Part shown: positions 1 through 11,148 of the stretch, piece after piece
Layout of the letters: each line of letters opens with the position of its first letter
Position numbering within the stretch: the first letter of the stretch is position 1
Source: Comamonadaceae bacterium
GTDB taxonomy: Bacteria; Pseudomonadota; Gammaproteobacteria; Burkholderiales; Burkholderiaceae_C
DNA: 11,148 nt
Assembly (NCBI GenBank): GCA_947469815.1
Contig: CANIRI010000042.1
Coordinates: forward strand, 1 to 11,148
Direction of reading: 5' to 3'
Position numbers and translations under genes: made by a program
The notes under the pieces: generated by a model
The model's input: the letters and a program-made list of their open reading frames with translations, nothing else
What the model was told of the DNA's origin: nothing
The model's database searches: none

Positions 1-479
1 CGGCTATCAATGCGCTGGACATCAATGTGATCTACACCTACCAAGCCGCTGCGCTCACTGCAGTGCAAGTGCAAGCCCTCACAACAGGTCAGTTGGGCGA
101 ACTCGATCCAGAACAAGTGGCTGCCATCGCATCCGAAGGCATTGCACAGCTCAGCGCGGCACAGGTGCCTGCCCTGAGCAGCGACGCCATCGGCGCACTG
201 CTGCCCAACCAGATGACGGCGATGACGACCGCCGCCTTGAACGCACTGACCAGCGACCAGCTGATTTCCATATCCACCGATGCCATCGCCGCACTCAGCA
301 CCGAACAAGTCCACAAGCTCAGCGACGCTCAGTTGGGCTACCTGACGGCCGACCAGCTGCAGGCCATGGATGTCTTACAGCTGGGGGCTTTGGATTCAAA
401 CCAGGTTGCGGTGCTGACCTCCGACCAGACGGTCAAGCTCAGCGAGGCCCAAATGGCGGCGCTGAACTTAAGCAGCTAA
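1..479 (+). CDS. Octapeptide-repeat protein, C-terminal part (runs off left edge)
   Basis: The reading frame is open from the left edge (first whole codon at base 3) to a TAA at 477-479, so the true start lies outside the window. The GTG at 27 is only an internal codon. The visible 158 residues are almost entirely 19 consecutive eight-residue repeats of the form [LIVM]-x-x-[LIM]-[ST/D]-x-x-[QA], for example LGYLTADQ, IAALSTEQ and VAVLTSDQ. In the middle, units ending in Q tend to alternate with units ending in A. The protein ends inside the last repeat (MAALNLSS) with no separate C-terminal domain. No cysteine, transmembrane segment or catalytic motif is visible. Regular spacing of aliphatic residues suggests a helical solenoid or fibrous surface protein, but the function is unknown. 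It is convergent with the metalloprotease gene and is the only gene read on the plus strand. Confidence 0.75.
   Translation, partial: AINALDINVIYTYQAAALTAVQVQALTTGQLGELDPEQVAAIASEGIAQLSAAQVPALSSDAIGALLPNQMTAMTTAALNALTSDQLISISTDAIAALSTEQVHKLSDAQLGYLTADQLQAMDVLQLGALDSNQVAVLTSDQTVKLSEAQMAALNLSS
21..476 (+). repeat. 24-bp / 8-residue coding tandem repeat
   Basis: There are nineteen in-frame octads from INVIYTYQ to MAALNLSS. The repeat is conserved in protein but diverged in DNA, so it is an old array kept by selection on the protein rather than a recent expansion. Confidence 0.75.
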
Positions 480-546: not shown

Positions 547-2406
547 TTAGGCAACGAAGGCAAAGGTATTGGAAGAAACCGCTGCGCCGGCCACGGCGCG
601 GTAAGCCGCAATCTTCACGGCCGCATAGCCGCTACCCGACCCATCGGCGTCGTAATAGATGTCCCCGGTGCTTTGGTTCACCACAATGCGGCTGTCTTTG
701 CTGCGCGCTGCACCGCTCGTACCAAGGTCAATATTTTTCGCCGTCAGGCTACCAAAGAGCGACTTGCTCAGGGCGATGCGGTCACAGCTCTGCAGGTTGT
801 TGATGTCGTTGAACGCGCCCTGCTTAAAGGCTCCGTTGAGCACCACGGTATCTGCCGCCAATGCCGTGCCCAGGCTGACCTTGTTGATCTTGCTACCGTA
901 GGCCAGGGCCACATTCTTGTTACCGCTGTACTGGCGCACTGCTTTGCTGTCGGCGCTGAGCATATTGATGCTGGAGAAGGTTCCCGCGTTCAGGTTCACC
1001 GTGCTGCCCTTGCTCAAGCCCGCCAGATCGATCGTGTCGCGTCCGGTGGCTGAGTACAAGGTGGACAGCCCAGGCTTGCTGTCAGAGAAGCTGAATTGCC
1101 CGCCAGCGCCCGCGACATCACCCGCAGCGGTGGAGCCCGCAGTGTTCACCCCGTACAGGTACTGCAGCGCCGCCACGTCGTACAGCATGTAGCTCAGGTT
1201 GTTGACGCCGGCGGTGTATGCGTTGGACTTGTACGACATCAGGGAGTACTGCTGGTTGTCGGTCGCCGAGGGCAAAAACGGGCCGGTGGCGGCGCTCCCG
1301 GATGCATCGTAGTTGCCCGGGTGTTTAAGGCCCAGCGCGTGGCCCAGCTCGTGCCAAATCTCCGACCACCCCACCGTGCCTGCGGTAGAGTCGCCCACAT
1401 ACCCGCCGGGCTGGGCATTGAGGAATGTGTAGACCTTGTCGGTCAAGGGATAAGAGGCCGGCAGGTTGGAAATGCCGCCCAGCCCATAGGCGCCGCCCGC
1501 ACGCGCGCTCATGTCGTAGGTGCCGAGCTGGATGTTGCCGCTGCCGTCTGTGGCCTCGGTGAAGTTCAGCTTGGTTACCGAACTGATATACGCCAGCGCC
1601 GCCCGCGCCGCCGCTTTTTGGTTGGCATCCATCTCGGCGAATTGCTTGTCTTTCCCGATGGAGGGGAAGTCATTTTTCAAAATAGCCGTTGGCGCCTGGC
1701 TGGCGGTGGTGAAGCTGTAGCTCAGCTGCTGGCGTGCGCTCCCGGGCGACAGGGCCCACACCCCCGGCATCACCTGTGTGGTGCCCACGCTGGGCGTCGC
1801 GCCTTGCGCGTGCCACCAGGCCACATCGCGCTGCAGCATGGCGTCCAGGCTGGTGTTGCCAGTCGTTTTCGGCAGCGGGGGCTCAGTGCCCTGGATAGTG
1901 GCGTCAAAAGCGCCGGTGAATTTACCGCCCTTGGCGACAGACCAGGTGAAGGTGTATTCGCCCGACTCTTTGGCGGTGAACGTGCCGCTCTTGAGGCTCA
2001 GCGCCGTGGCCTTGGTGTCGGAGGGCCCCTTGAGGCTCAGGCTGGCGGCGGGTGCAGAGCCCTTGCTCTGGTACGCATACAAATACGAAGAGGCCGCCGT
2101 ATAGCGGAAACCCTTGATCAGATGCGCTTTGATCGTGACCGTGGACATATCCTGGTCAGCGGGGTTGAGCTCGGCAGCCGCGAAAGTCGCCTTGTGGTCA
2201 TAGCCCACGAAACCCATATTGAAGGTCAGCGCGGCCGCCGTTCCTTGTGGGCTAGCTGCCGCATCCTTGGGTGCGGCAGGCGGCTGCACGGTCACCGACT
2301 TGGTCAGCCCGTTGACCATGCGCACCACCTTCACAGGTGGGGCCAATACCGCTTGGGTACTGCGCAAGGCCAGGCTTGGCGTTCTGGACAGGGCAGCCAC
2401 TGGCAT
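547..2406 (-). CDS. Serralysin-like (M10) zinc metalloprotease without RTX repeats
   Basis: This 619-residue protein is a probable secreted endopeptidase. Residues 352-362 form the metzincin zinc site HExxHxxGxxH (HELGHALGLKH): H352, H356 and H362 bind zinc and E353 is the catalytic base. The Met-turn SLMSY is at 388-392, with Y392 the usual extra ligand of serralysins. YDVAALQYLYGVN (409-421) matches the family motif just after the catalytic domain. Residues 1-180 form a Ser/Ala-rich N-terminal region with a beta-sandwich-like part (about 60-172) and no Sec signal. After 455 the protein resembles a serralysin C-terminal domain, but I find no GGxGxD nonapeptides. It keeps the terminal DIYYDADGSGSG block (582-592) and ends TFAFVA, as type I secretion substrates often do. 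Its ATG lies 24 bases after the preceding stop, with GAAGGCAGG just upstream, so it is probably the last gene of the operon. Confidence 0.88.
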   Translation of the reverse strand: MPVAALSRTPSLALRSTQAVLAPPVKVVRMVNGLTKSVTVQPPAAPKDAAASPQGTAAALTFNMGFVGYDHKATFAAAELNPADQDMSTVTIKAHLIKGFRYTAASSYLYAYQSKGSAPAASLSLKGPSDTKATALSLKSGTFTAKESGEYTFTWSVAKGGKFTGAFDATIQGTEPPLPKTTGNTSLDAMLQRDVAWWHAQGATPSVGTTQVMPGVWALSPGSARQQLSYSFTTASQAPTAILKNDFPSIGKDKQFAEMDANQKAAARAALAYISSVTKLNFTEATDGSGNIQLGTYDMSARAGGAYGLGGISNLPASYPLTDKVYTFLNAQPGGYVGDSTAGTVGWSEIWHELGHALGLKHPGNYDASGSAATGPFLPSATDNQQYSLMSYKSNAYTAGVNNLSYMLYDVAALQYLYGVNTAGSTAAGDVAGAGGQFSFSDSKPGLSTLYSATGRDTIDLAGLSKGSTVNLNAGTFSSINMLSADSKAVRQYSGNKNVALAYGSKINKVSLGTALAADTVVLNGAFKQGAFNDINNLQSCDRIALSKSLFGSLTAKNIDLGTSGAARSKDSRIVVNQSTGDIYYDADGSGSGYAAVKIAAYRAVAGAAVSSNTFAFVA

Positions 2407-2789: not shown

Positions 2790-5700
2790 TCAGACCGTGA
2801 AGGTGATGTTCGCGTCAACGGTGAACTTGTCAAGGACATCAAGGTAGTCTTGCGTCACAGGGCCGGCGGTGTCATCGGTGTTGCTGAAGTCGGCCAGGGA
2901 AATCGTGATGGTGTCATCGGTATCGTCCGACACGTCCAACTCGACTGCGGTCAACTTGTCGCCTGCATCGATCAGGTCTTCAAAGGCAGTGCTCAGCGCC
3001 CCGCCCATGTCCTTCACGGTAAACGAATCCACACTCTCGTCCCCCGTAGCAGCCGCAACATCGACTCCAGCCAGTTCGGTAATGGTCGCGTGGTAGACGT
3101 CCCCATTGGCATTGGTGATCTTGTCCAGCAAGCCGGTGCCTGCCGTGACGTTGTCAATGTATTGCAGACCAGTCAGTGCCAGCGCCGCATTGTCAGAAAC
3201 CACCACCTCCGAGATCTTGTCGACGTTTTCATCCAGCGCAGCCACACCGTTTGTCGCGTCACCGATGATGGCGAGGATGTTCGCGGCCGTATCTTTGACG
3301 GCAGCGAAATTCACCGAGGTATCGTCGAGCAAGGCCACTAGGTCGCCTGCTTCTACATCCTCCACCTCCCAGGTCATGGTCGACAACACGTCAGCGCGCG
3401 CGGTGGCCACGTCGGTGTAGTCGGTGTACGAAACTACGATGTCGGCAACGTCACTTTGCGTAACCGTTGTCAGCTTGGTGGCTTCATCAACGGCCCGCTG
3501 AATCGCCAGAATATTGGCGCCCAAGCCATCTGCATCGTCTTCGACATCGAATGTAATGATGTTGGTGTCGGCTAAAACCGCGTCAATGTCATCCGAGTCC
3601 AAAGCCGTGATGACAGCCTGGTATCCGGAAGTTCCGTTGGTCATGATCTTGTTCAGGGTAGCGCCGTTGGCAGCGTACTCGGCGCCGGTGAGCTCCAGCT
3701 GGTTTTCGGAACCATCATCGCCACCGTCCGTGCGGTTGATCACCTGGAGCTTGGTAGACAGCTCAAGATCTGCCAGGTTGGCTGTGATATCCGCGCCCTC
3801 GCCGCTTGCGGTGTAGGACGCCACATGGTCATCTGTGTTCACATCGTCAGCGGCATCAGCCGCATCCTCAATGGTCACTGCAGACAGCGCCAGTTTGTAG
3901 TCACCGTCGGGCACATCCGTGGTCACGTTCAAAATGCTCAGCGCCGAAGCCTTGCTGGCCGTGTACACATCAGCCGAAATGTTAATGGTATTGGCTTTGT
4001 CGGTCACCGTGATCGCGGTCAGGGTGCCGCTGGCCTCCAGAACATTCAGTTCGGCCAGCCTGCCACCCACCGAGGCACCTGCACCGGTCACCGTCATTTC
4101 TGCCACATGGGTGTTGGTCGCAGTGACAGTGGCTTTCTCAGCCGTCACATCGGTCACTTTCAGGTCGTAGTTGTTGTCGCCGTCACTGTCGACGATCTTG
4201 TCCAACATAGACTGGTAGCTTGCCGAGCTGAAGTTGGCGAATGACATTTTGATGTTGCCAGAGCCGTCATCGGTGATCTTGTCCAACTTGCCGGCGTCGA
4301 AGACCGCCTTCAGGTCGGAGAGTTTCAGGCCGATGTTCTCGGAGGTGTCGGCTACCTCCATCTTGGTGACCTTTGCGCCCCACTTGGCGTGATTCTTGAG
4401 GGCCAAGGCATCGCCGGCAGCTACGCCAGTGACATCGAGCTTGTACTCGCCAGCAGTTTGGGTGGAGCCCACTTTGCCATAAATTTTGTCAAGCACTTTG
4501 ACGATGGCGGTCTCTTGCAAATCGTCGTAGGTGATGGCGATGGCAGGACGGCCGCCTGCGGCGTCGGACTGGTTGATGCGCGACAACTTACCAGCCTCTG
4601 AGAGGTCCATTAATTCGTCGTTGACCTCACCAGCGATGTTTGCGGCATCGTCCGTGATGCTGACGCTCGTCACCTGGTCCCAGTTGTCTCCGTCGAACGT
4701 GGCGTGGGCAAGATCTGCCACCAAGACCTGGCTCAGGGAGACAGAGAAATCCGTGTTCTCCTGCGTGCCAGTAGTGACCAAGTCGGTGTCGACGCCGTTA
4801 TTGGCCCGGACCAGATCCAGGACGTTTTGCGCGCCCGTGCTCTTGTACACGGCGGACGTCATGGACATAGTGCCGTCGTCTGACAGGGTAATTCCCGTGA
4901 GAGTGCCCAAGGCCTCTGCGGCAATCAGTTGCGTCATCGCGCCGCCAAAATTGACCGCCTTGTCTTTGAACGTGAATTCGGTGATGTCATCATTGGCAAT
5001 GACTGCTGCGAGGTCTGCTGCGCCCACATCCTTGACCTTGATGGTGGCACCACCAGTGAGGTCCAACTTTTCAAAGGCAGACGCCTTGTACTGCGCCACC
5101 GTGAGTTCAATTTGATTGGCATCGCTGACGACGATGCTGGTCAGGTTTTTGCCGATCTTGGTGAGCGCGTCAAAATTTGTTTTGATGGCAGCAGCCTCAC
5201 CGGTAATCTCAGACCCGTCCATTTTGCTGTTGGTGAAAGCCTTCAGGTTGGCCATCGCATTGGTGAGGGAGTCTTCCACCTTGACTTTACTGACACTGGT
5301 GAGTTTCGTCATAGCGGCGACATCGGCGGCCAGCAGCCCGGTGACCACTGCAAAGCCGGTGGCCGCGCTGTAGGCGCCGCCAGTCGTTGCGTGCCGCTGC
5401 ACTTTCTTCAACATGGCCTGGTTGGCATTAAATTCGGCCTTGGTCAGCTCCAGTTTTCCACCCACGTCGGTGATGTTGATTTTGTCAATGCTGCCGCCCT
5501 TGGTGGCGTAATCTGTCGCAAAGGCTGCGAAGTTGGCCGTGATGTTTTCGGCGGTGTCTTCCAAGGTCGTCACATTGGTGCCATTGGCGGCCCAGTTAGT
5601 GAGCACATTGGCCACGTTGTCTTTGATGGTGACCTTGTCAACTTTGCCGGTTTGCACGGTTGCAGCCGCAGCCGCAGTGACGTTGGTCACCTTGACGTTG

Positions 5701-6410
5701 GCAGCGGCCATGATCTTGTCGTCCAAGGTCGCTTTGACAGTCGTGTCCTGGTAGTTGGCGTAGGAAATGCTGATGGTGTTGGCGCCATCGGTTTGGGCAA
5801 TAGACCCGACCTTGGCGTTGTTCAGCAGCGAAGCGGCGCCATTGCCCAACGAGGTCGTCAGATTGGCGGCAGTGTCTTTAACCGTCAGAGACTTCACGCG
5901 GGCATTGGCGGTCATAGTCGACAGGTCGCTCACCGCTGCACCGGACACCGACCAATTGACGTTACCAGCAACACCGGCGCTGTCTTTGATCTTGGCTTGC
6001 AATGTGCTCGTCGCGTTGAATTGCGTGGCCGTCAGGGCCACGTTATTTGCGGTGTCCTGCACGGTCACCAGGCTCACCTTGGCATGGCTGGTGGCAAGCG
6101 ACGCGAAGTTCAGCGACACCTCAGCGGCAGTTCCCTCGACAGACAGAGAAGACAGGCGCTTGTCAGCCAAAGCCGCCTTCAGGGTGGTGCCGCCCAAATC
6201 CAGGTCCAAGCCCTCGACGGAATAGGCGTGGAGTGCGGTTTTGGTGAACACGCTTCCCAACAAGGATTTGTTCGCCAGGTACTCGTCCGCATTCAAGGAC
6301 AGGGCCAGCGTGGTGCCGCCCGTTGTGGAGATGTTCTTAATTTTCGAACCCAACTCCAGCAAAGCACTGATATTTGTCTCGATGTTCGCTTTGGAGTCGC
6401 TGATCATCAC
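2790..6410 (-). repeat. About 13 degenerate ~280-bp coding repeats
   Basis: Units start near residues 43 and 129, then roughly every 85-105 residues, each opening with the [VF]-x-[VI]-x-D-[TSD]-x-x-N-like strand. Units 4 and 5 are compound: each holds an extra half-unit (LEDTAENITANF; EITGEAAAIKTNF). The last unit stops after its first half and ends in the C-terminal strand. Confidence 0.75.
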
Positions 6411-6536
6411 ACCGGACAGCGCCGTACCGGCCTCGAATGCTTCGATCGCAGCCTGGGCCGTCATTGGGGTCGCAACGGCGGAAGTGCGCGCAACGGCGAG
6501 GGTAGGGGCTGCGTAAGATACTGCGGAAACTTGCAT
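2790..6536 (-). CDS. Giant repeat surface/secreted protein (about 13 units of ~90 residues)
   Basis: This 1248-residue protein has a short N-terminal cap (1-42) followed by about 13 repeats. The unit core is roughly V-x-V-x-D-T-A-A-N-[IL], an amphipathic helix ending in x-x-L, then a-x-I-x-[VL]-x-D and a strand plus helix (LTAxQY), then a linker strand (YxLxVTxVxAxD) leading to the next unit. Examples are SLTVKDTAANLTTSL and KMEVADTSENIGLKL. This style occurs in large 'beta strand repeat' surface proteins of proteobacteria, often type I secreted. I see no Sec signal, cysteine or catalytic motif. Early units are Lys/Thr-rich, later ones strongly acidic (runs such as TDGGDDGSE), which would suit calcium binding outside the cell. 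The C-terminus is ITFTV, a plausible type I secretion end. The ATG at 6536 has a perfect AAGGAGT Shine-Dalgarno sequence. Candidate roles are S-layer, adhesin or filament-associated layer; the exact role is unknown. Confidence 0.8.
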   Translation of the reverse strand: MQVSAVSYAAPTLAVARTSAVATPMTAQAAIEAFEAGTALSGVMISDSKANIETNISALLELGSKIKNISTTGGTTLALSLNADEYLANKSLLGSVFTKTALHAYSVEGLDLDLGGTTLKAALADKRLSSLSVEGTAAEVSLNFASLATSHAKVSLVTVQDTANNVALTATQFNATSTLQAKIKDSAGVAGNVNWSVSGAAVSDLSTMTANARVKSLTVKDTAANLTTSLGNGAASLLNNAKVGSIAQTDGANTISISYANYQDTTVKATLDDKIMAAANVKVTNVTAAAAATVQTGKVDKVTIKDNVANVLTNWAANGTNVTTLEDTAENITANFAAFATDYATKGGSIDKINITDVGGKLELTKAEFNANQAMLKKVQRHATTGGAYSAATGFAVVTGLLAADVAAMTKLTSVSKVKVEDSLTNAMANLKAFTNSKMDGSEITGEAAAIKTNFDALTKIGKNLTSIVVSDANQIELTVAQYKASAFEKLDLTGGATIKVKDVGAADLAAVIANDDITEFTFKDKAVNFGGAMTQLIAAEALGTLTGITLSDDGTMSMTSAVYKSTGAQNVLDLVRANNGVDTDLVTTGTQENTDFSVSLSQVLVADLAHATFDGDNWDQVTSVSITDDAANIAGEVNDELMDLSEAGKLSRINQSDAAGGRPAIAITYDDLQETAIVKVLDKIYGKVGSTQTAGEYKLDVTGVAAGDALALKNHAKWGAKVTKMEVADTSENIGLKLSDLKAVFDAGKLDKITDDGSGNIKMSFANFSSASYQSMLDKIVDSDGDNNYDLKVTDVTAEKATVTATNTHVAEMTVTGAGASVGGRLAELNVLEASGTLTAITVTDKANTINISADVYTASKASALSILNVTTDVPDGDYKLALSAVTIEDAADAADDVNTDDHVASYTASGEGADITANLADLELSTKLQVINRTDGGDDGSENQLELTGAEYAANGATLNKIMTNGTSGYQAVITALDSDDIDAVLADTNIITFDVEDDADGLGANILAIQRAVDEATKLTTVTQSDVADIVVSYTDYTDVATARADVLSTMTWEVEDVEAGDLVALLDDTSVNFAAVKDTAANILAIIGDATNGVAALDENVDKISEVVVSDNAALALTGLQYIDNVTAGTGLLDKITNANGDVYHATITELAGVDVAAATGDESVDSFTVKDMGGALSTAFEDLIDAGDKLTAVELDVSDDTDDTITISLADFSNTDDTAGPVTQDYLDVLDKFTVDANITFTV

Positions 6537-6814: not shown

Positions 6815-8158
6815 TTAGACCCGGACCACCATGCCGGTGTTCTTGCTGCTGAGCAGCTTGCAGGCGATCAGCGCCACCTCAAAAGGATTGCGCAGCGTGC
6901 TCTCGGCCTCGCTGGCGAAGTTGCTGCGCCGCATGTCGGTGTCGGTGCGGCCGGGCACCAGGCAGTTGACCCGCACGCCCGCATCCGCCCACTCCTCGGC
7001 CAGCCCTTGCGTCATATTGACGATGCCGGCCTTGCTGGCCGAGTAAGGCGTGTAGCCCGCCCGTCCGCGGGTGTAGGACGAGGAGGAGAAATTCAGCAGC
7101 ATGCCCTTGGTCTGCTGCAAGGCGGCCAAACTGGCTTTGGCCACGTAAAAAGCGCCCAAAAGATTCACCTGGATCAGGCTCTCAATGGTCTGCAAGGGCT
7201 GGCTGCCCAGCCCCTCGTGCTGCAGCAAACCGACGGTGTTGACCACAAAATCAATCGAGCCCAGCTGGCCCAGCGCCTGCTGCACGGCCTGTTCCACCTG
7301 CTGGGGCACGCGGATGTCGCAGCCGGTGCTGCGCCCGATCTCCACGGTCTGCGCGCCGGACTCCTGCAAGACGGTGGAGATGGCTTTGCCTATGCCTTTG
7401 GTGCCGCCAAATACCAGGGCGCGGGTGTTGCGCACATTGAGCCCTTGCACTTCTGGGTCCCATTTGGAGGCCAGGGTGCGGAACAGCTCGTCGGCCAGCA
7501 CCATGTCCAGGTCTTCGGTGATTTTGATGTTTTCGCTGCTGCCTTTGACGATGCGCACCCGGCCCATGGGGTTGCATTCCATGTAGATGCCGCAGTCGTC
7601 GGTGAATTCCGACAGGCGCGAAGCCCCCACCTCTTGGTAGGCGCGCAGCAGCGGCGCAAAGTGAAAGCCCTGGGGGGTCTGGCCCCGGTAAATGTGGTTG
7701 CGCTTGGGGATGGACTGGATGAAACCGTCGCGTTCGACAATGATGGTGTCGGTGGTGGGGATGGCGACATCCACCGCCTCATGCTGCTCCAGCGCCTCCA
7801 AGACGTCATGGACGATTTGGGTGGACACAAAGGGCCGCGCCGCATCGTGCAGCACCACTTTAGCGGGCGGGTCGGCCATGAGGTGCTTCAAAGCGGACCA
7901 GGCCGAGGCCTGCCGGCTGTCGCCGCCAATCACGAATTCGGCCTGGGGGTGCGCCGCCAGCAGCTTTTTGGCCAGAGCCAAGGCGTCAGCCGGAACCACC
8001 ACGACCATGCGCGCCTGCGGGTCGTAGCTGTGCAGCGCGATGTAGCTGTGCTCCAGCAGCGAGCGGCCGGCCACGCGGATGAACTGTTTGGGGGTGGGCT
8101 GGTTCAGCCTCATGCCCTGCCCGCCTGCGAGCAGGACAAAAGCGACGCTTTTAGACAT
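6815..8158 (-). CDS. Bifunctional CDP-ribitol synthase (IspD-like cytidylyltransferase + SDR reductase)
   Basis: This 447-residue fusion has two enzyme domains. Residues 1-235 are an IspD/TarI-type cytidylyltransferase: LLAGGQGMR (9-17) with PKQF (23-26) for CTP binding, HDAARPF (104-110), TPQGF (161-165) and VKGSSENIKITEDLD (204-218). Residues 245-447 are a short-chain dehydrogenase: GGTKGIG (251-257) for NAD(P), NTVG (307-310), the serine run at 358-361, and catalytic YSASK (Y372, K376). This order is that of Haemophilus Acs1/Bcs1, which reduces ribulose 5-phosphate to ribitol 5-phosphate and couples it to CTP, giving CDP-ribitol. Other polyol phosphates are possible. The ATG at 8158 overlaps the upstream stop by 8 bases (ATGTCTAA). 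A longer TTG start at 8179 is less likely because conserved sequence begins right after this ATG. Translation is probably coupled to the LicD gene. Confidence 0.85.
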   Translation of the reverse strand: MSKSVAFVLLAGGQGMRLNQPTPKQFIRVAGRSLLEHSYIALHSYDPQARMVVVVPADALALAKKLLAAHPQAEFVIGGDSRQASAWSALKHLMADPPAKVVLHDAARPFVSTQIVHDVLEALEQHEAVDVAIPTTDTIIVERDGFIQSIPKRNHIYRGQTPQGFHFAPLLRAYQEVGASRLSEFTDDCGIYMECNPMGRVRIVKGSSENIKITEDLDMVLADELFRTLASKWDPEVQGLNVRNTRALVFGGTKGIGKAISTVLQESGAQTVEIGRSTGCDIRVPQQVEQAVQQALGQLGSIDFVVNTVGLLQHEGLGSQPLQTIESLIQVNLLGAFYVAKASLAALQQTKGMLLNFSSSSYTRGRAGYTPYSASKAGIVNMTQGLAEEWADAGVRVNCLVPGRTDTDMRRSNFASEAESTLRNPFEVALIACKLLSSKNTGMVVRV

Positions 8159-9803
8159 AGGCGCCCAGCGGGTTGGCAAAGTCGTCTGCGCGCAGGAGCG
8201 CAGGTGCTACACAAAAGCGGGCCTCGAGCTGGTCTATGAGTTGCGGGTCCATGGCCGCATCATAGGTTTGGTACTCCCGCAGCAACTGCACCACGCGCCG
8301 GGTTTTGTTGGGCTTGCCCTCCACGATGCCGCCCAGCAGCTCGAGCCGGGACACCATCATGTGGATCTCGCCCCCGACGTCCTTGGTAGACGGGCTTTGC
8401 AAGTGCGTGGCGTAGTAGGGGTCTGAAATTTCCCAGTCGCCATAGTTCTCGCGCAAATTGCGGGGAATGTCGTCTGGCACGGCAAAGTCCACGTCCAAAA
8501 AACGGACCGTCTGGAGACCGAATTTGCTGAATACAAAGTTTTGGTTGTAGCCAAATGTGCCGTGCACGCCGGTGATCAACTGCCCGTCATGGTCGTAGTA
8601 GACGAATATGTCAATGCAAATAGAGGTCGCTTTGTGCATGACCGGCAATTGGTAGATGCGGTCCAGCCGTATATACCCTTTGAGTAAGCGAAAGGTGGGG
8701 CTTTTCAGCACCAGATCGACCACGGAAAAAATATCCTGCTCCGCGAAAATGCCGACGTCGATATCTTTGTCATGCGCCAGGAAGCCGCCGTTGCGCTGGT
8801 AGCCCAGCAGGGTTCCGGACACCAGAAAAGGCACGATATCAGCGGTCTGCAACAGGGCATTGAGGTCCGTAAGCGCCAATGCAGCCGCATTGCCGTCAAA
8901 TTCCTTGGGCCGCGCCTTGGCGCCTTTGACGTCAGAGTTTTGGAATTGGGCGTCAATCTGCTCGTCGGTTTGCGCCAGCATGGTGGCGAATACCTGGTCC
9001 AGCAGATCGATGGACTGGCGGTACTCGCCCATGCTGGAGTGGGCCTGTGCGCGGCGAAATTGCAGCATCGTGGGGTTACAACCCTCTGGTGCCGGCTTGG
9101 AACACCAGGCAATGCATTCCAGGTATTCCCTGTTCTTGTGGTGGAAGGTCGCCACAATTTGTGCCAACTCGAATGCCACGCGTGGCAAGACAGGCTCCGT
9201 GTGCCGGTGCAGCGCGGTGGCAAACCGTATCCACCGCTGCATAGACTCCGGGGCCAGATCCCCTTCGAGGATCACTTTGACCCGGGTGACGATGGACTTG
9301 GCACACAAGAGCAAAAACTCCGGCGTGACTTCAGTGCGCAGATGGTTTTCCGCCAACAAGAGCGCGCTACTGAGCTGCTCATGGTCCATGCACAGCTCCA
9401 CACAGAAAAACCAGTCCTGGCCGGTCCCGGTGAGTTTTCTGCCGCCGGCTTTGCCGATAGCGATGGTTTTTTTGTCAATGATGCTCTCGACCGTGCGCCG
9501 AATCACATGGAACGGCGAGAGCTTGGCGATGTCGGGGTTGAGCTTTTTGGCAAGAATGGACTGGTAAACCTGCAAGATCATCCAGGGGCGATTCTTGGCG
9601 CTGGAGTTATGGGCCGCGATGGACGCCACAAAAATAACTGCCGGCACGTTTTTCAACTGCCGGCAATAGTCTAGAAAATCTGGGGAGGTGATGAGGTCGA
9701 GCCCATGCTCGTCCACAATCTTGTCGAACTGGTCGAACGACTTTGTCTCAATCATCCGCACCAAGGTGGACAGCAGCCACATCATTTTTTCTTTTGTGGC
9801 CAT
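8151..9803 (-). CDS. LicD/fukutin-family phosphotransferase with helical N-terminal domain
   Basis: The 550-residue protein has a C-terminal LicD-type nucleotidyltransferase-fold domain (about 308-465). VSGTLLGYQRNGGFLAHDKD runs from 328 to 347, with the metal-binding aspartates D345, D347 and D349 in DKDID. A further acidic strand CIDIF (396-400, D398) and LRENYGDWE (450-458) complete the family pattern. Family members move phospho-alcohols from CDP carriers: LicD moves phosphocholine, and human fukutin and FKRP move ribitol 5-phosphate from CDP-ribitol. The next gene is a CDP-ribitol synthase type enzyme, so ribitol phosphate is the likely donor group. Residues 1-300 look all-helical, with one TPR-like stretch (about 251-275), perhaps for acceptor binding. 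There is no signal peptide or membrane span, so it is likely cytoplasmic. Start codon ATG at 9803; GGGCGGG about 10 bases upstream is a weak Shine-Dalgarno sequence. The acceptor may be flagellin, encoded just upstream. Confidence 0.82.
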   Translation of the reverse strand: MATKEKMMWLLSTLVRMIETKSFDQFDKIVDEHGLDLITSPDFLDYCRQLKNVPAVIFVASIAAHNSSAKNRPWMILQVYQSILAKKLNPDIAKLSPFHVIRRTVESIIDKKTIAIGKAGGRKLTGTGQDWFFCVELCMDHEQLSSALLLAENHLRTEVTPEFLLLCAKSIVTRVKVILEGDLAPESMQRWIRFATALHRHTEPVLPRVAFELAQIVATFHHKNREYLECIAWCSKPAPEGCNPTMLQFRRAQAHSSMGEYRQSIDLLDQVFATMLAQTDEQIDAQFQNSDVKGAKARPKEFDGNAAALALTDLNALLQTADIVPFLVSGTLLGYQRNGGFLAHDKDIDVGIFAEQDIFSVVDLVLKSPTFRLLKGYIRLDRIYQLPVMHKATSICIDIFVYYDHDGQLITGVHGTFGYNQNFVFSKFGLQTVRFLDVDFAVPDDIPRNLRENYGDWEISDPYYATHLQSPSTKDVGGEIHMMVSRLELLGGIVEGKPNKTRRVVQLLREYQTYDAAMDPQLIDQLEARFCVAPALLRADDFANPLGAYV

Positions 9804-9829
9804 CAGCTGCTACCCGCCCTTCAATGAAT

Positions 9830-9850
9830 ATGCCGGCCCAGGGCCGGCAT
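9830..9850 (-). terminator. Hairpin after the flagellin gene
   Basis: ATGCCGGCCC and GGGCCGGCAT are perfect 10-bp complementary arms around one base (realistically an 8-bp stem with a 5-base loop), 20 bases after the flagellin stop. The minus-strand sequence that follows is ATTCATT, only partly T-rich. It probably reduces readthrough into the LicD operon without abolishing it. No separate promoter is evident before that operon. Confidence 0.55.
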
Positions 9851-9870
9851 GTGTAAAGCTTCTACCGCTA

Positions 9871-10695
9871 TCAGCCCTTGAGCAGCTGCATGACCTGCTG
9901 CGGCTGCTGGTTGGCCTGCGCCAGCATGGCAGTGGCTGCCTGCTGAATGATTTGGGTCTTGGCCAACTGCGTCGTTGCCAAAGCGTAGTCGGTGTCCATG
10001 ATGGTACTGCGCGATTGCGTGGCGTTCGAGGACACATTGGTCAGATTATCAGCGGCATACTCCATCCGGTTGATACCGGCACCGATGGCGGCGCGTTGGG
10101 TATTGATGTTTTGCAGTGATTCTTCAATGGCCTGAAGCGCTGCGGTGGCTGTGAGCACCTCCGTGATGTCCGCAGACACGATAGCGACCGCAGATCCGGA
10201 TGTAAGACCCATGTTTGCGATTTCAACTGTAATAGTCTGGCCGCTCGATGCACCCGCTTGAAATACAAACGGAACGCTGCCGTCTAATAGAACCTGGTCG
10301 TTCCATTTGGTATCCGTGGCGATTTTGCCAATCTGGGCTTTGAGTTCCAGGAATTCAGTATTTAGATAACCGCGTTGATCCCCGTCATACGTGCCGTTCA
10401 TGGCCTGCACCGCCAGCTCGCGCATGCGCTGCAACATATTGGACTGCTCCACCATCGCCCCCTCCGCCGTCTGCATCATATTGATACCGTCGTTGAGGTT
10501 GCGTACCGCCATATTCAGGCCGCGAATCTGCGAGGTCAAATTCTGACCAATGGCCAAACCGGCCGCATCGTCCTTGGCGGAATTGACGCGTGTGCCCGTG
10601 GAGAGCTGCTCCATCGCCGTGCTCATCGCACGGGAATTGGTTTTCATCGCATTTTGCGAATACATCGCGCTTACGTTGGTATTAATAACTGACAT
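9871..10695 (-). CDS. fliC: Flagellin (short)
   Basis: This 274-residue flagellin is the filament subunit exported by the flagellar type III system. The N-terminal D0/D1 region is clear: MSVINTNVSA, LSTGTRVNSAKDDAAGLAIG (31-50), LNDGINMMQTAEGA (67-80) and LQRMRELAVQAMNGT (88-102, the conserved D1 segment). The C-terminal D1/D0 helix is IGAGINRMEYAADNLTN (204-220) to LLAKTQ-type sequence and QQVMQLLKG. The variable middle (about 140-185) is tiny, so there is almost no D2/D3 domain. GGAGA at 10701-10705 precedes two adjacent ATGs (10698 and 10695). The second gives the canonical MSVINTN start with better spacing. A longer frame to 10785 is rejected because it would cover the promoter. Serine/threonine near residues 140-185 would be exposed and could carry the sugar-phosphate made by the downstream genes (inference). 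Confidence 0.93.
   Translation of the reverse strand: MSVINTNVSAMYSQNAMKTNSRAMSTAMEQLSTGTRVNSAKDDAAGLAIGQNLTSQIRGLNMAVRNLNDGINMMQTAEGAMVEQSNMLQRMRELAVQAMNGTYDGDQRGYLNTEFLELKAQIGKIATDTKWNDQVLLDGSVPFVFQAGASSGQTITVEIANMGLTSGSAVAIVSADITEVLTATAALQAIEESLQNINTQRAAIGAGINRMEYAADNLTNVSSNATQSRSTIMDTDYALATTQLAKTQIIQQAATAMLAQANQQPQQVMQLLKG
9877..10092 (-). repeat. Flagellin C-terminal direct repeat, copy 1
   Basis: This 216-bp stretch aligns without gaps to 10933-11148 at an offset of 1056 bases and encodes the conserved C-terminal flagellin helix. The two copies differ mainly at synonymous sites, so they are paralogues under strong constraint or occasional gene conversion. Confidence 0.8.
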
Positions 10696-10700
10696 CATGC

Positions 10701-10929: not shown

Positions 10930-11148
10930 TTATTTCAGTAACTGCATGACCTGCTGTGGCTGTTGGTTCGCCTGGGCCAGCATGGCAGTGGCGGCCTGCT
11001 GAATAATCTGGGTCTTGGCCAGCTGCGTCGTGGTTATTGCATAGTCGGTGTCAATAATCGTGCTACGCGATTGCGTGGCGTTAGCCGATATATTGGACAG
11101 ATTATCAACGGCATATTCCATCCGGTTGATACCGGCACCAATGGTGGC
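10930..11148 (-). CDS. fliC: Second flagellin, C-terminal part (runs off right edge)
   Basis: The frame is open from the right edge to TAA at 10930-10932, giving the last 72 residues of a flagellin: ATIGAGINRMEYAVDNLSNI, then ANATQSRSTIIDTDYA, TQLAKTQIIQQAATAMLAQ and a QQVMQLLK end. It is the conserved C-terminal D1/D0 helix that packs in the filament core and carries the type III chaperone/assembly region. It differs from the neighbouring flagellin at a handful of residues (for example AITTTQ against ALATTQ) and lacks its final glycine. It lies upstream in the same direction, so this is a tandem flagellin array, but it has its own strong terminator and the downstream copy its own promoter. 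The start and promoter lie outside the window. Confidence 0.92.
   Translation of the reverse strand, partial: ATIGAGINRMEYAVDNLSNISANATQSRSTIIDTDYAITTTQLAKTQIIQQAATAMLAQANQQPQQVMQLLK
10933..11148 (-). repeat. Flagellin C-terminal direct repeat, copy 2
   Basis: Gap-free match to 9877-10092 (offset 1056 bases). The repeat may continue beyond the window into the rest of the second flagellin gene. Confidence 0.8.

Follow-up and report, generated by a model that had tools for sequence, protein, structure and literature searches.

The window analysed here is a stretch of 11,148 nucleotides (nt) from a Comamonadaceae bacterium, the entire contig C42 (CANIRI010000042.1) of a 2.3-Mb metagenome-assembled genome (MAG) that is 75% complete. 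Directly downstream of flagellin genes it carries two overlapping genes, one for a transferase with a tetratricopeptide repeat (TPR)-like domain followed by a LicD domain, and one for an enzyme in which an IspD-type domain is fused to an SDR domain. Together they rather probably form a two-gene flagellin-modification module that combines a ribitol donor with a flagellar acceptor; taken singly, the flagellar acceptor appears highly probable and the ribitol donor quite probable. This interpretation builds on direct observations of gene content, domain architecture, predicted fold, conserved linkage and co-occurrence. The features concerned are the following.

6815-8158, minus strand: IspD-SDR enzyme, 447 residues from its ATG (open reading frame (ORF) list, Pfam, tree, site comparison).
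8151-9803, minus strand: TPR-LicD transferase, 550 residues (ORF list, Pfam, predicted fold).
9804-9870, minus strand: 67-nt gap between flagellin and transferase genes, with the GC-rich inverted repeat GCCGGCCCTGGGCCGGC, read by eye.
9871-10698 (ORF listed to 10785), minus strand: flagellin, 275 residues from its likely start, with both flagellin domains (Pfam); the proposed acceptor.
10933-11148, minus strand: second flagellin, C-terminal 72 residues, cut by the contig end.

The order of transcription on the minus strand is the C terminus of a flagellin, the full flagellin, the LicD-type gene and the IspD-SDR gene, the last overlapping the stop end of the transferase gene by 8 nt. An alternative TTG start of the IspD-SDR gene at 8179 would add seven residues; the closest homologue, P0121, has 447. 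Public data contain close relatives of the two genes (97% and 98% identity), so the pair is not an assembly artefact. Another contig of the MAG, C53, contains two full flagellins and a flagellin N terminus cut at the contig end (flagellin matches), together with FlaG-type (Pfam) and FlgK-, FlgL- and FliD-type genes (clustering with typed genes). The intact order in a related locus, L022, is FlgK, FlgL, FliD, FlaG, four flagellins, LicD and IspD-SDR, so that C53 probably runs on into the window. No exact overlap of C53, or of the contig C39 described below, with the window ends was found, and the adjacency of their genes (flagellins on C53, a GT41 gene on C39) is therefore a matter of gene order only. 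As the initial annotation had observed, capsule or teichoic-acid genes are not in sight: a Pfam scan of six window ORFs detected none, and, unlike capsule and teichoic-acid loci, these ORFs include no capsule export or polymerase gene.

The linkage to flagella was surveyed by scanning a genome collection with the family alignment, which gave 58 loci; the scan relies on two exact peptides, so that relatives carrying neither were missed. As relatives we counted 27 loci, i.e., the 26 that match most of the protein (L022-L047, L031 being cut by a contig end) and L112 from genome G250, and as controls 36, i.e., the 32 other scan loci and four loci with related single genes. To detect flagellar genes, the flanks (from almost nothing up to 10 kb) were searched by tblastn using 19 reference proteins from C53 and these same loci, most of them typed by Pfam. 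Such genes were found beside 25 of the 27 relatives and beside none of the 36 control loci, with some loci closely related (e.g., L038 and L039), so that the 27 are not independent cases. The initial annotation had suggested such a survey and had named a consistent location in capsule or lipopolysaccharide (LPS) loci as the outcome that would contradict it; no such location was seen. Flagellin itself lay within the fetched stretch in 15 of 26 loci. The pair is placed after flagellins (L022-L027, L040 and L043), beside fliE with flagellins (L028, L031 and L037), next to flhA-flhF (seven loci, in Hydrogenophaga and in G250, five of them having flgE at the opposite end) or after flgI-K-L genes (L034, L038, L039 and L046), and its hosts include Comamonadaceae, Beijerinckiaceae, other Hyphomicrobiales and Nevskiaceae. 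In Hydrogenophaga the flagellin is just beyond the flank, at about 11 kb as estimated for L032, L033 and L035 from contig numbers and coordinates. Eleven genomes of this sort were searched, and 10 of them gave a flagellin match below 1e-40. A second, diverged TPR-LicD-type copy lies near two flagellins in a Beijerinckiaceae MAG (L044:6235-7821).

The two genes are also tied to each other. The IspD-SDR gene adjoins the transferase gene in 25 of the 27 relatives (L031, at a contig end, cannot be judged), and 19 of the 24 pairs measured overlap, the other five being spaced by 19-28 nt (start codons picked by script). In the 399 genomes searched from the family of the window, matches to the transferase (E <= 0.001) and matches to the IspD-SDR enzyme (E <= 1e-60) fall in the same six and in no others. 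At the level of the phylum (398 genomes), four genomes have the enzyme (E <= 1e-50) and six match the transferase profile (E <= 1e-20), with three shared. The further profile matches are a LicD part only (G502) and TPR-LicD genes followed by an IspD-only gene (G537 and G552), while the fourth enzyme, from G576, sits in a capsule-like locus with a Glyphos_transf gene (Pfam) and ABC-transporter-like genes (by eye). This last locus, and the fact that LicD enzymes commonly modify glycans, would fit a pair that decorates LPS, capsule or exopolysaccharide and lies in flagellar loci by chance or because they are a shared hot spot; given a flagellar linkage of 25/27 versus 0/36, at several positions, and the TPR-like domain, we hold this to be quite improbable. 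A search of 61 relatives gave transferase matches in four, two of them partial or weak. In one flagellar locus (L045) a glycerol-3-phosphate cytidylyltransferase-like gene (145.5 of the 165.4 bits needed) replaces the IspD-SDR gene, which indicates that the LicD partner can switch donor. A second gene, weakly LicD-like, was noticed at L041:4325-5563, L042:12921-14159 and L046:12915-14171 (in L041 and L046 it falls short of the Pfam cut-off); it is followed by a CTP_transf_like gene, of the type resembling glycerol-3-phosphate cytidylyltransferase, with one gene in between in L041 and L042. These genes may add another polyol phosphate, and given their presence a short teichoic-acid-like chain of ribitol or glycerol phosphate on flagella is conceivable.

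The initial annotation had described the overlapping partner as a LicD/fukutin-type transferase with intact DxD-type motifs, an assignment that the predicted fold supports. The Pfam LicD profile (PF04991) is matched above its cut-off (29.2 versus 22.6 bits) at residues 321-352, with just 32 profile positions aligned, and FKRP is the first fold match of the predicted model of the LicD half. The protein can be divided into a helical TPR-like domain (about 1-290), overlooked in the initial annotation, and a domain with the LicD/FKRP-type nucleotidyltransferase fold (about 300-532). The latter contains the metal motif HDKDID (H344-D345-K346-D347-I348-D349), in which D345, D347 and D349 align with the DxDxD of FKRP and are invariant in 37 alignment rows. 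The metal-binding or catalytic aspartates of FKRP are residues 360, 362, 364 and 416 (PMC6965139). By our reading, D398 further along is a candidate counterpart of Asp416. The prediction of a TPR-like N-terminal half has weak support, single profile stretches scoring about 0.002-0.006, and in the VIA-align list for this half TPR, PCI and proteasome-lid rows tie, pointing to no specific family. The TPR-like domain is the best clue to a protein acceptor.

For the IspD-SDR enzyme, Pfam gives IspD (PF01128, 160.6 bits, residues 12-232) and then SDR (PF00106, 125.7 bits, residues 254-422) in one chain. This is the layout of Haemophilus Acs1/Bcs1, with the IspD-type domain N-terminal and the SDR C-terminal, as the initial annotation had recognized. 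A tree of 30 IspD domains, which included six IspD, 18 flagella-family domains, TarI (two rows) and two capsule/Proteus-type rows and was built without Acs1/Bcs1, separates the six IspD from the 18, with the TarI and capsule/Proteus-type rows falling among the 18. At 28 columns, picked for separating the 18 flagella-family rows from the six IspD, both TarI rows match the 18 at 15 columns and IspD at two; for the capsule/Proteus rows the figures are 16 and one. Judging by its sequence, the IspD half is closer to TarI and to capsule-type enzymes than to the housekeeping IspD, and the likeliest product of the enzyme, a likely one in our opinion, is CDP-ribitol. Were the gene instead the plain housekeeping IspD of isoprenoid synthesis, one could understand that the MAG of the window, 75% complete, gave no second full-length IspD match, but a congener that is 99% complete (G034) has the pair plus a separate full-length ispD, each of the four other congeners searched, which all lack the pair, has a single full-length IspD match, and the tree and the sites place the enzyme apart from IspD. 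We consider this alternative extremely improbable and have rejected it on the basis of the separate ispD in G034, the tree and the sites. A protein search of a plasmid collection with the IspD-SDR enzyme returned no record above 60% identity and two records covering at least 80%.

Several observations weigh against a ribitol-dependent modification of flagellin. The window enzyme falls short of the ribitol model of NCBIfam (NF001183, D-ribitol-5-phosphate cytidylyltransferase; 138 versus 166 bits needed), which the capsule-type enzyme of G576 passes (180.5 bits), and it scores higher on the IspD model (175.8 of the 181.3 bits needed), reaching neither. Support in the tree for leaving IspD out is moderate (86/78 and 87/92), with long branches. 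Because the cut-off is missed, we only liken the enzyme to the Acs1/Bcs1 type and do not file it under NF001183, and ribitol 5-phosphate is no more than its presumed substrate. The earlier designation as a CDP-ribitol synthase thus stands as far as tree and sites go, and has to be softened with regard to substrate. The missed cut-off, as well as the gene found in L045, would also be expected if the same machinery with the same flagellar target moved another polyol phosphate (another pentitol, methylerythritol or similar). The TarI-like sites (15/28 versus 2/28), the grouping with TarI and capsule-type enzymes and the SDR fusion in the Acs1/Bcs1 order argue for ribitol, making another polyol unlikely. 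On the side of the transferase, the sequence-only match to FKRP is weak (E 0.0096), and no Pfam TPR model passes for the window protein alone. Regarding the loci, no flagellar gene was found in the flanks of L041, where one flank is just 1.4 kb, and L042, although their genomes do contain flagellins; G847, the genome of L038, gave only weaker Flagellin_N matches, possibly FlgL; and two more distant TPR-LicD plus IspD-only loci (L116:9070-11080 and L118:8449-11203) are not flagellar. TPR-LicD enzymes may be modifiers of several exported proteins. The Ser+Thr content of the flagellin centre differs little, averaging 0.272 (n = 30) next to the pair and 0.256 (n = 11) in other places, these being plain means and the second set including L045, which adjoins a TPR-LicD gene; with no clear difference, Ser/Thr content was dropped as an acceptor signature. 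Lastly, further neighbours in the window resemble surface proteins and a protease (see below).

G027, a congener that lacks the pair, has flagellins 51-64% identical to that of L024; these are followed by a 674-aa MptE-like protein (Pfam), whose domain we take to be that of Maf flagellin transferases, and after it by genes passing the curated PseI, PseF and PseC models. In G031, a 1230-aa protein with glycosyltransferase domains comes next after a flagellin. The gene content of these two genomes suggests that other likely flagellin-modification genes occupy the place of the pair, and variable modification genes in flagellar loci are a feature of flagellin glycosylation islands. The comparison covers six stretches from five genomes (L153 ends soon after the flagellin; L155, L157 and L158 were compared by eye only), and in the stretches other than those of G027 and G031, three of them viewed by eye, no such gene was singled out. 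Genes of a GT41 cluster (O-GlcNAc-transferase-like; the L024 member, the only one scanned, has TPRs) lie a few kb from the pair in L024, L025, L034, L038 and L039, accompanied by dTDP-rhamnose-type genes in L034 (Pfam) and in L038 and L039 (clustering). On C39, the MAG of the window carries a TPR-GT41 gene (Pfam), between ALTTAQ-like genes (by eye), and three other genes of this contig resemble genes downstream of the pair in L022 (by eye). No GT41 match was obtained in G147, G221 and G400, three of seven genomes with the pair that were tested, so any primer needed there would come from another enzyme, and there is room for direct modification. A cytoplasmic O-ribitol-phosphorylation of flagellin Ser/Thr without a sugar primer, in lineages where the pair may be the whole island, would be a less probable reading.

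From these elements we infer substrate, acceptor, cellular place and order of events as follows. The SDR half would convert ribulose 5-phosphate into ribitol 5-phosphate, from which the IspD half, with CTP, would make CDP-ribitol. The TPR domain would bind flagellin in the cytoplasm before export, in an FlmG-like manner, and the LicD half would move ribitol phosphate (+214.02 Da, calculated by hand) from CDP-ribitol onto the acceptor by metal-assisted phosphodiester formation, modelled on FKRP and FKTN acting on alpha-dystroglycan. The acceptor hydroxyl would belong to a sugar already on flagellin where a GT41 enzyme is encoded nearby, and perhaps to flagellin itself where none is.

The proposed system has parallels in several known ones. 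Its enzyme shares TarI-like sites and, unlike Acs1/Bcs1 and TarI, adjoins flagellar genes instead of capsule or teichoic-acid genes. ISPD supplies CDP-ribitol to FKTN and FKRP, so that separate enzymes make and transfer the donor, as here (PMC4873967). A predicted nucleotidyltransferase fold and a metal Asp motif relate the window protein to FKTN/FKRP and to bacterial LicD; the TPR-like domain replaces the stem domain of FKRP (PMC6965139), and, unlike FKTN/FKRP, the proposed acceptor is flagellin and the enzyme presumably cytoplasmic. In Caulobacter, FlmG has an N-terminal TPR domain of about 300 residues and a C-terminal GT-B domain and puts pseudaminic acid on flagellin (PMC7591256). The window protein has the same arrangement of an N-terminal TPR-like domain and a C-terminal transferase, with flagellin as proposed target, but a LicD domain and not GT-B; it would work like FlmG without being a member of its family. 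Ribitol synthesis predicted within a flagellin locus has a precedent in the flagellin islands of Enterobacteriaceae, where a single sentence mentions ribitol genes in two strains of FGI type 12 (PMC4875605); this paper does not figure among those that mention LicD together with flagella. Apart from that sentence, the literature searched, which included few subscription papers, gave no account of a LicD enzyme or of ribitol phosphate on flagella. Phosphate-containing groups on flagellin, as proposed here, are a phosphorylated N-methyl-threonine borne by N-acetylglucosamine in Clostridioides difficile 630 (PMC4441256) and a 209-Da group on rhamnose in Pseudomonas aeruginosa PAO1 (PMC3958885), neither of 214 Da. 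What is new here is a proposed flagellin-modification module from a dystroglycan-type donor maker and transferase.

If our proposal is true, the protein-linked ribitol phosphate of alpha-dystroglycan gains a counterpart in bacteria, in which a donor maker and a LicD-fold transferase share the work in the same way, and an acidic polyol phosphodiester is added to the chemistry of flagellins. An acceptor would be predicted for a transferase family whose current source names are "hypothetical protein", "tetratricopeptide (TPR) repeat protein" and "LicD family protein", and fukutin-type catalysis could be studied in a simple soluble system. Carriers include Hydrogenophaga, available as cultured strains.

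The rest of the window contains the following features.

2790-6536, minus strand: surface-like repetitive acidic protein, 1248 residues, lacking Pfam hits at E values up to 0.1 and located 278 nt downstream of the pair.
547-2406, minus strand: serralysin-like protease, 619 residues, with HExxHxxGxxH (HELGHALGLKH, by eye) and weak Peptidase_M10/reprolysin matches.
3-479, plus strand: part of an ALTTAQ-repeat protein.

The first of these, or another secreted protein, could be the acceptor in place of flagellin, since it neighbours the pair; along the same lines, the TPR-LicD plus IspD-only locus of G552 (L118) adjoins a 2373-aa surface-like protein, and the GT41 gene of the MAG sits between ALTTAQ-like genes. 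Against this, flagellar genes recur beside the pair and no recurring surface-protein gene was noticed in the gene lists (mostly without Pfam), which makes such an acceptor very improbable. Contig C39 ends in a frame similar to the ALTTAQ-repeat ORF of the window (by eye) and may adjoin it.

Searching with a single strict pattern gave no sigma-28-like promoter upstream of the transferase gene (window and 11 loci) or upstream of six flagellin starts, and matches in a sigma-70 and terminator scan were not above those in shuffled sequences. The inverted repeat between flagellin and transferase genes is a possible attenuator; this hairpin is GC-rich and without a T run, and in L026, L040 and L043 the hairpins at the same place are followed by T runs.

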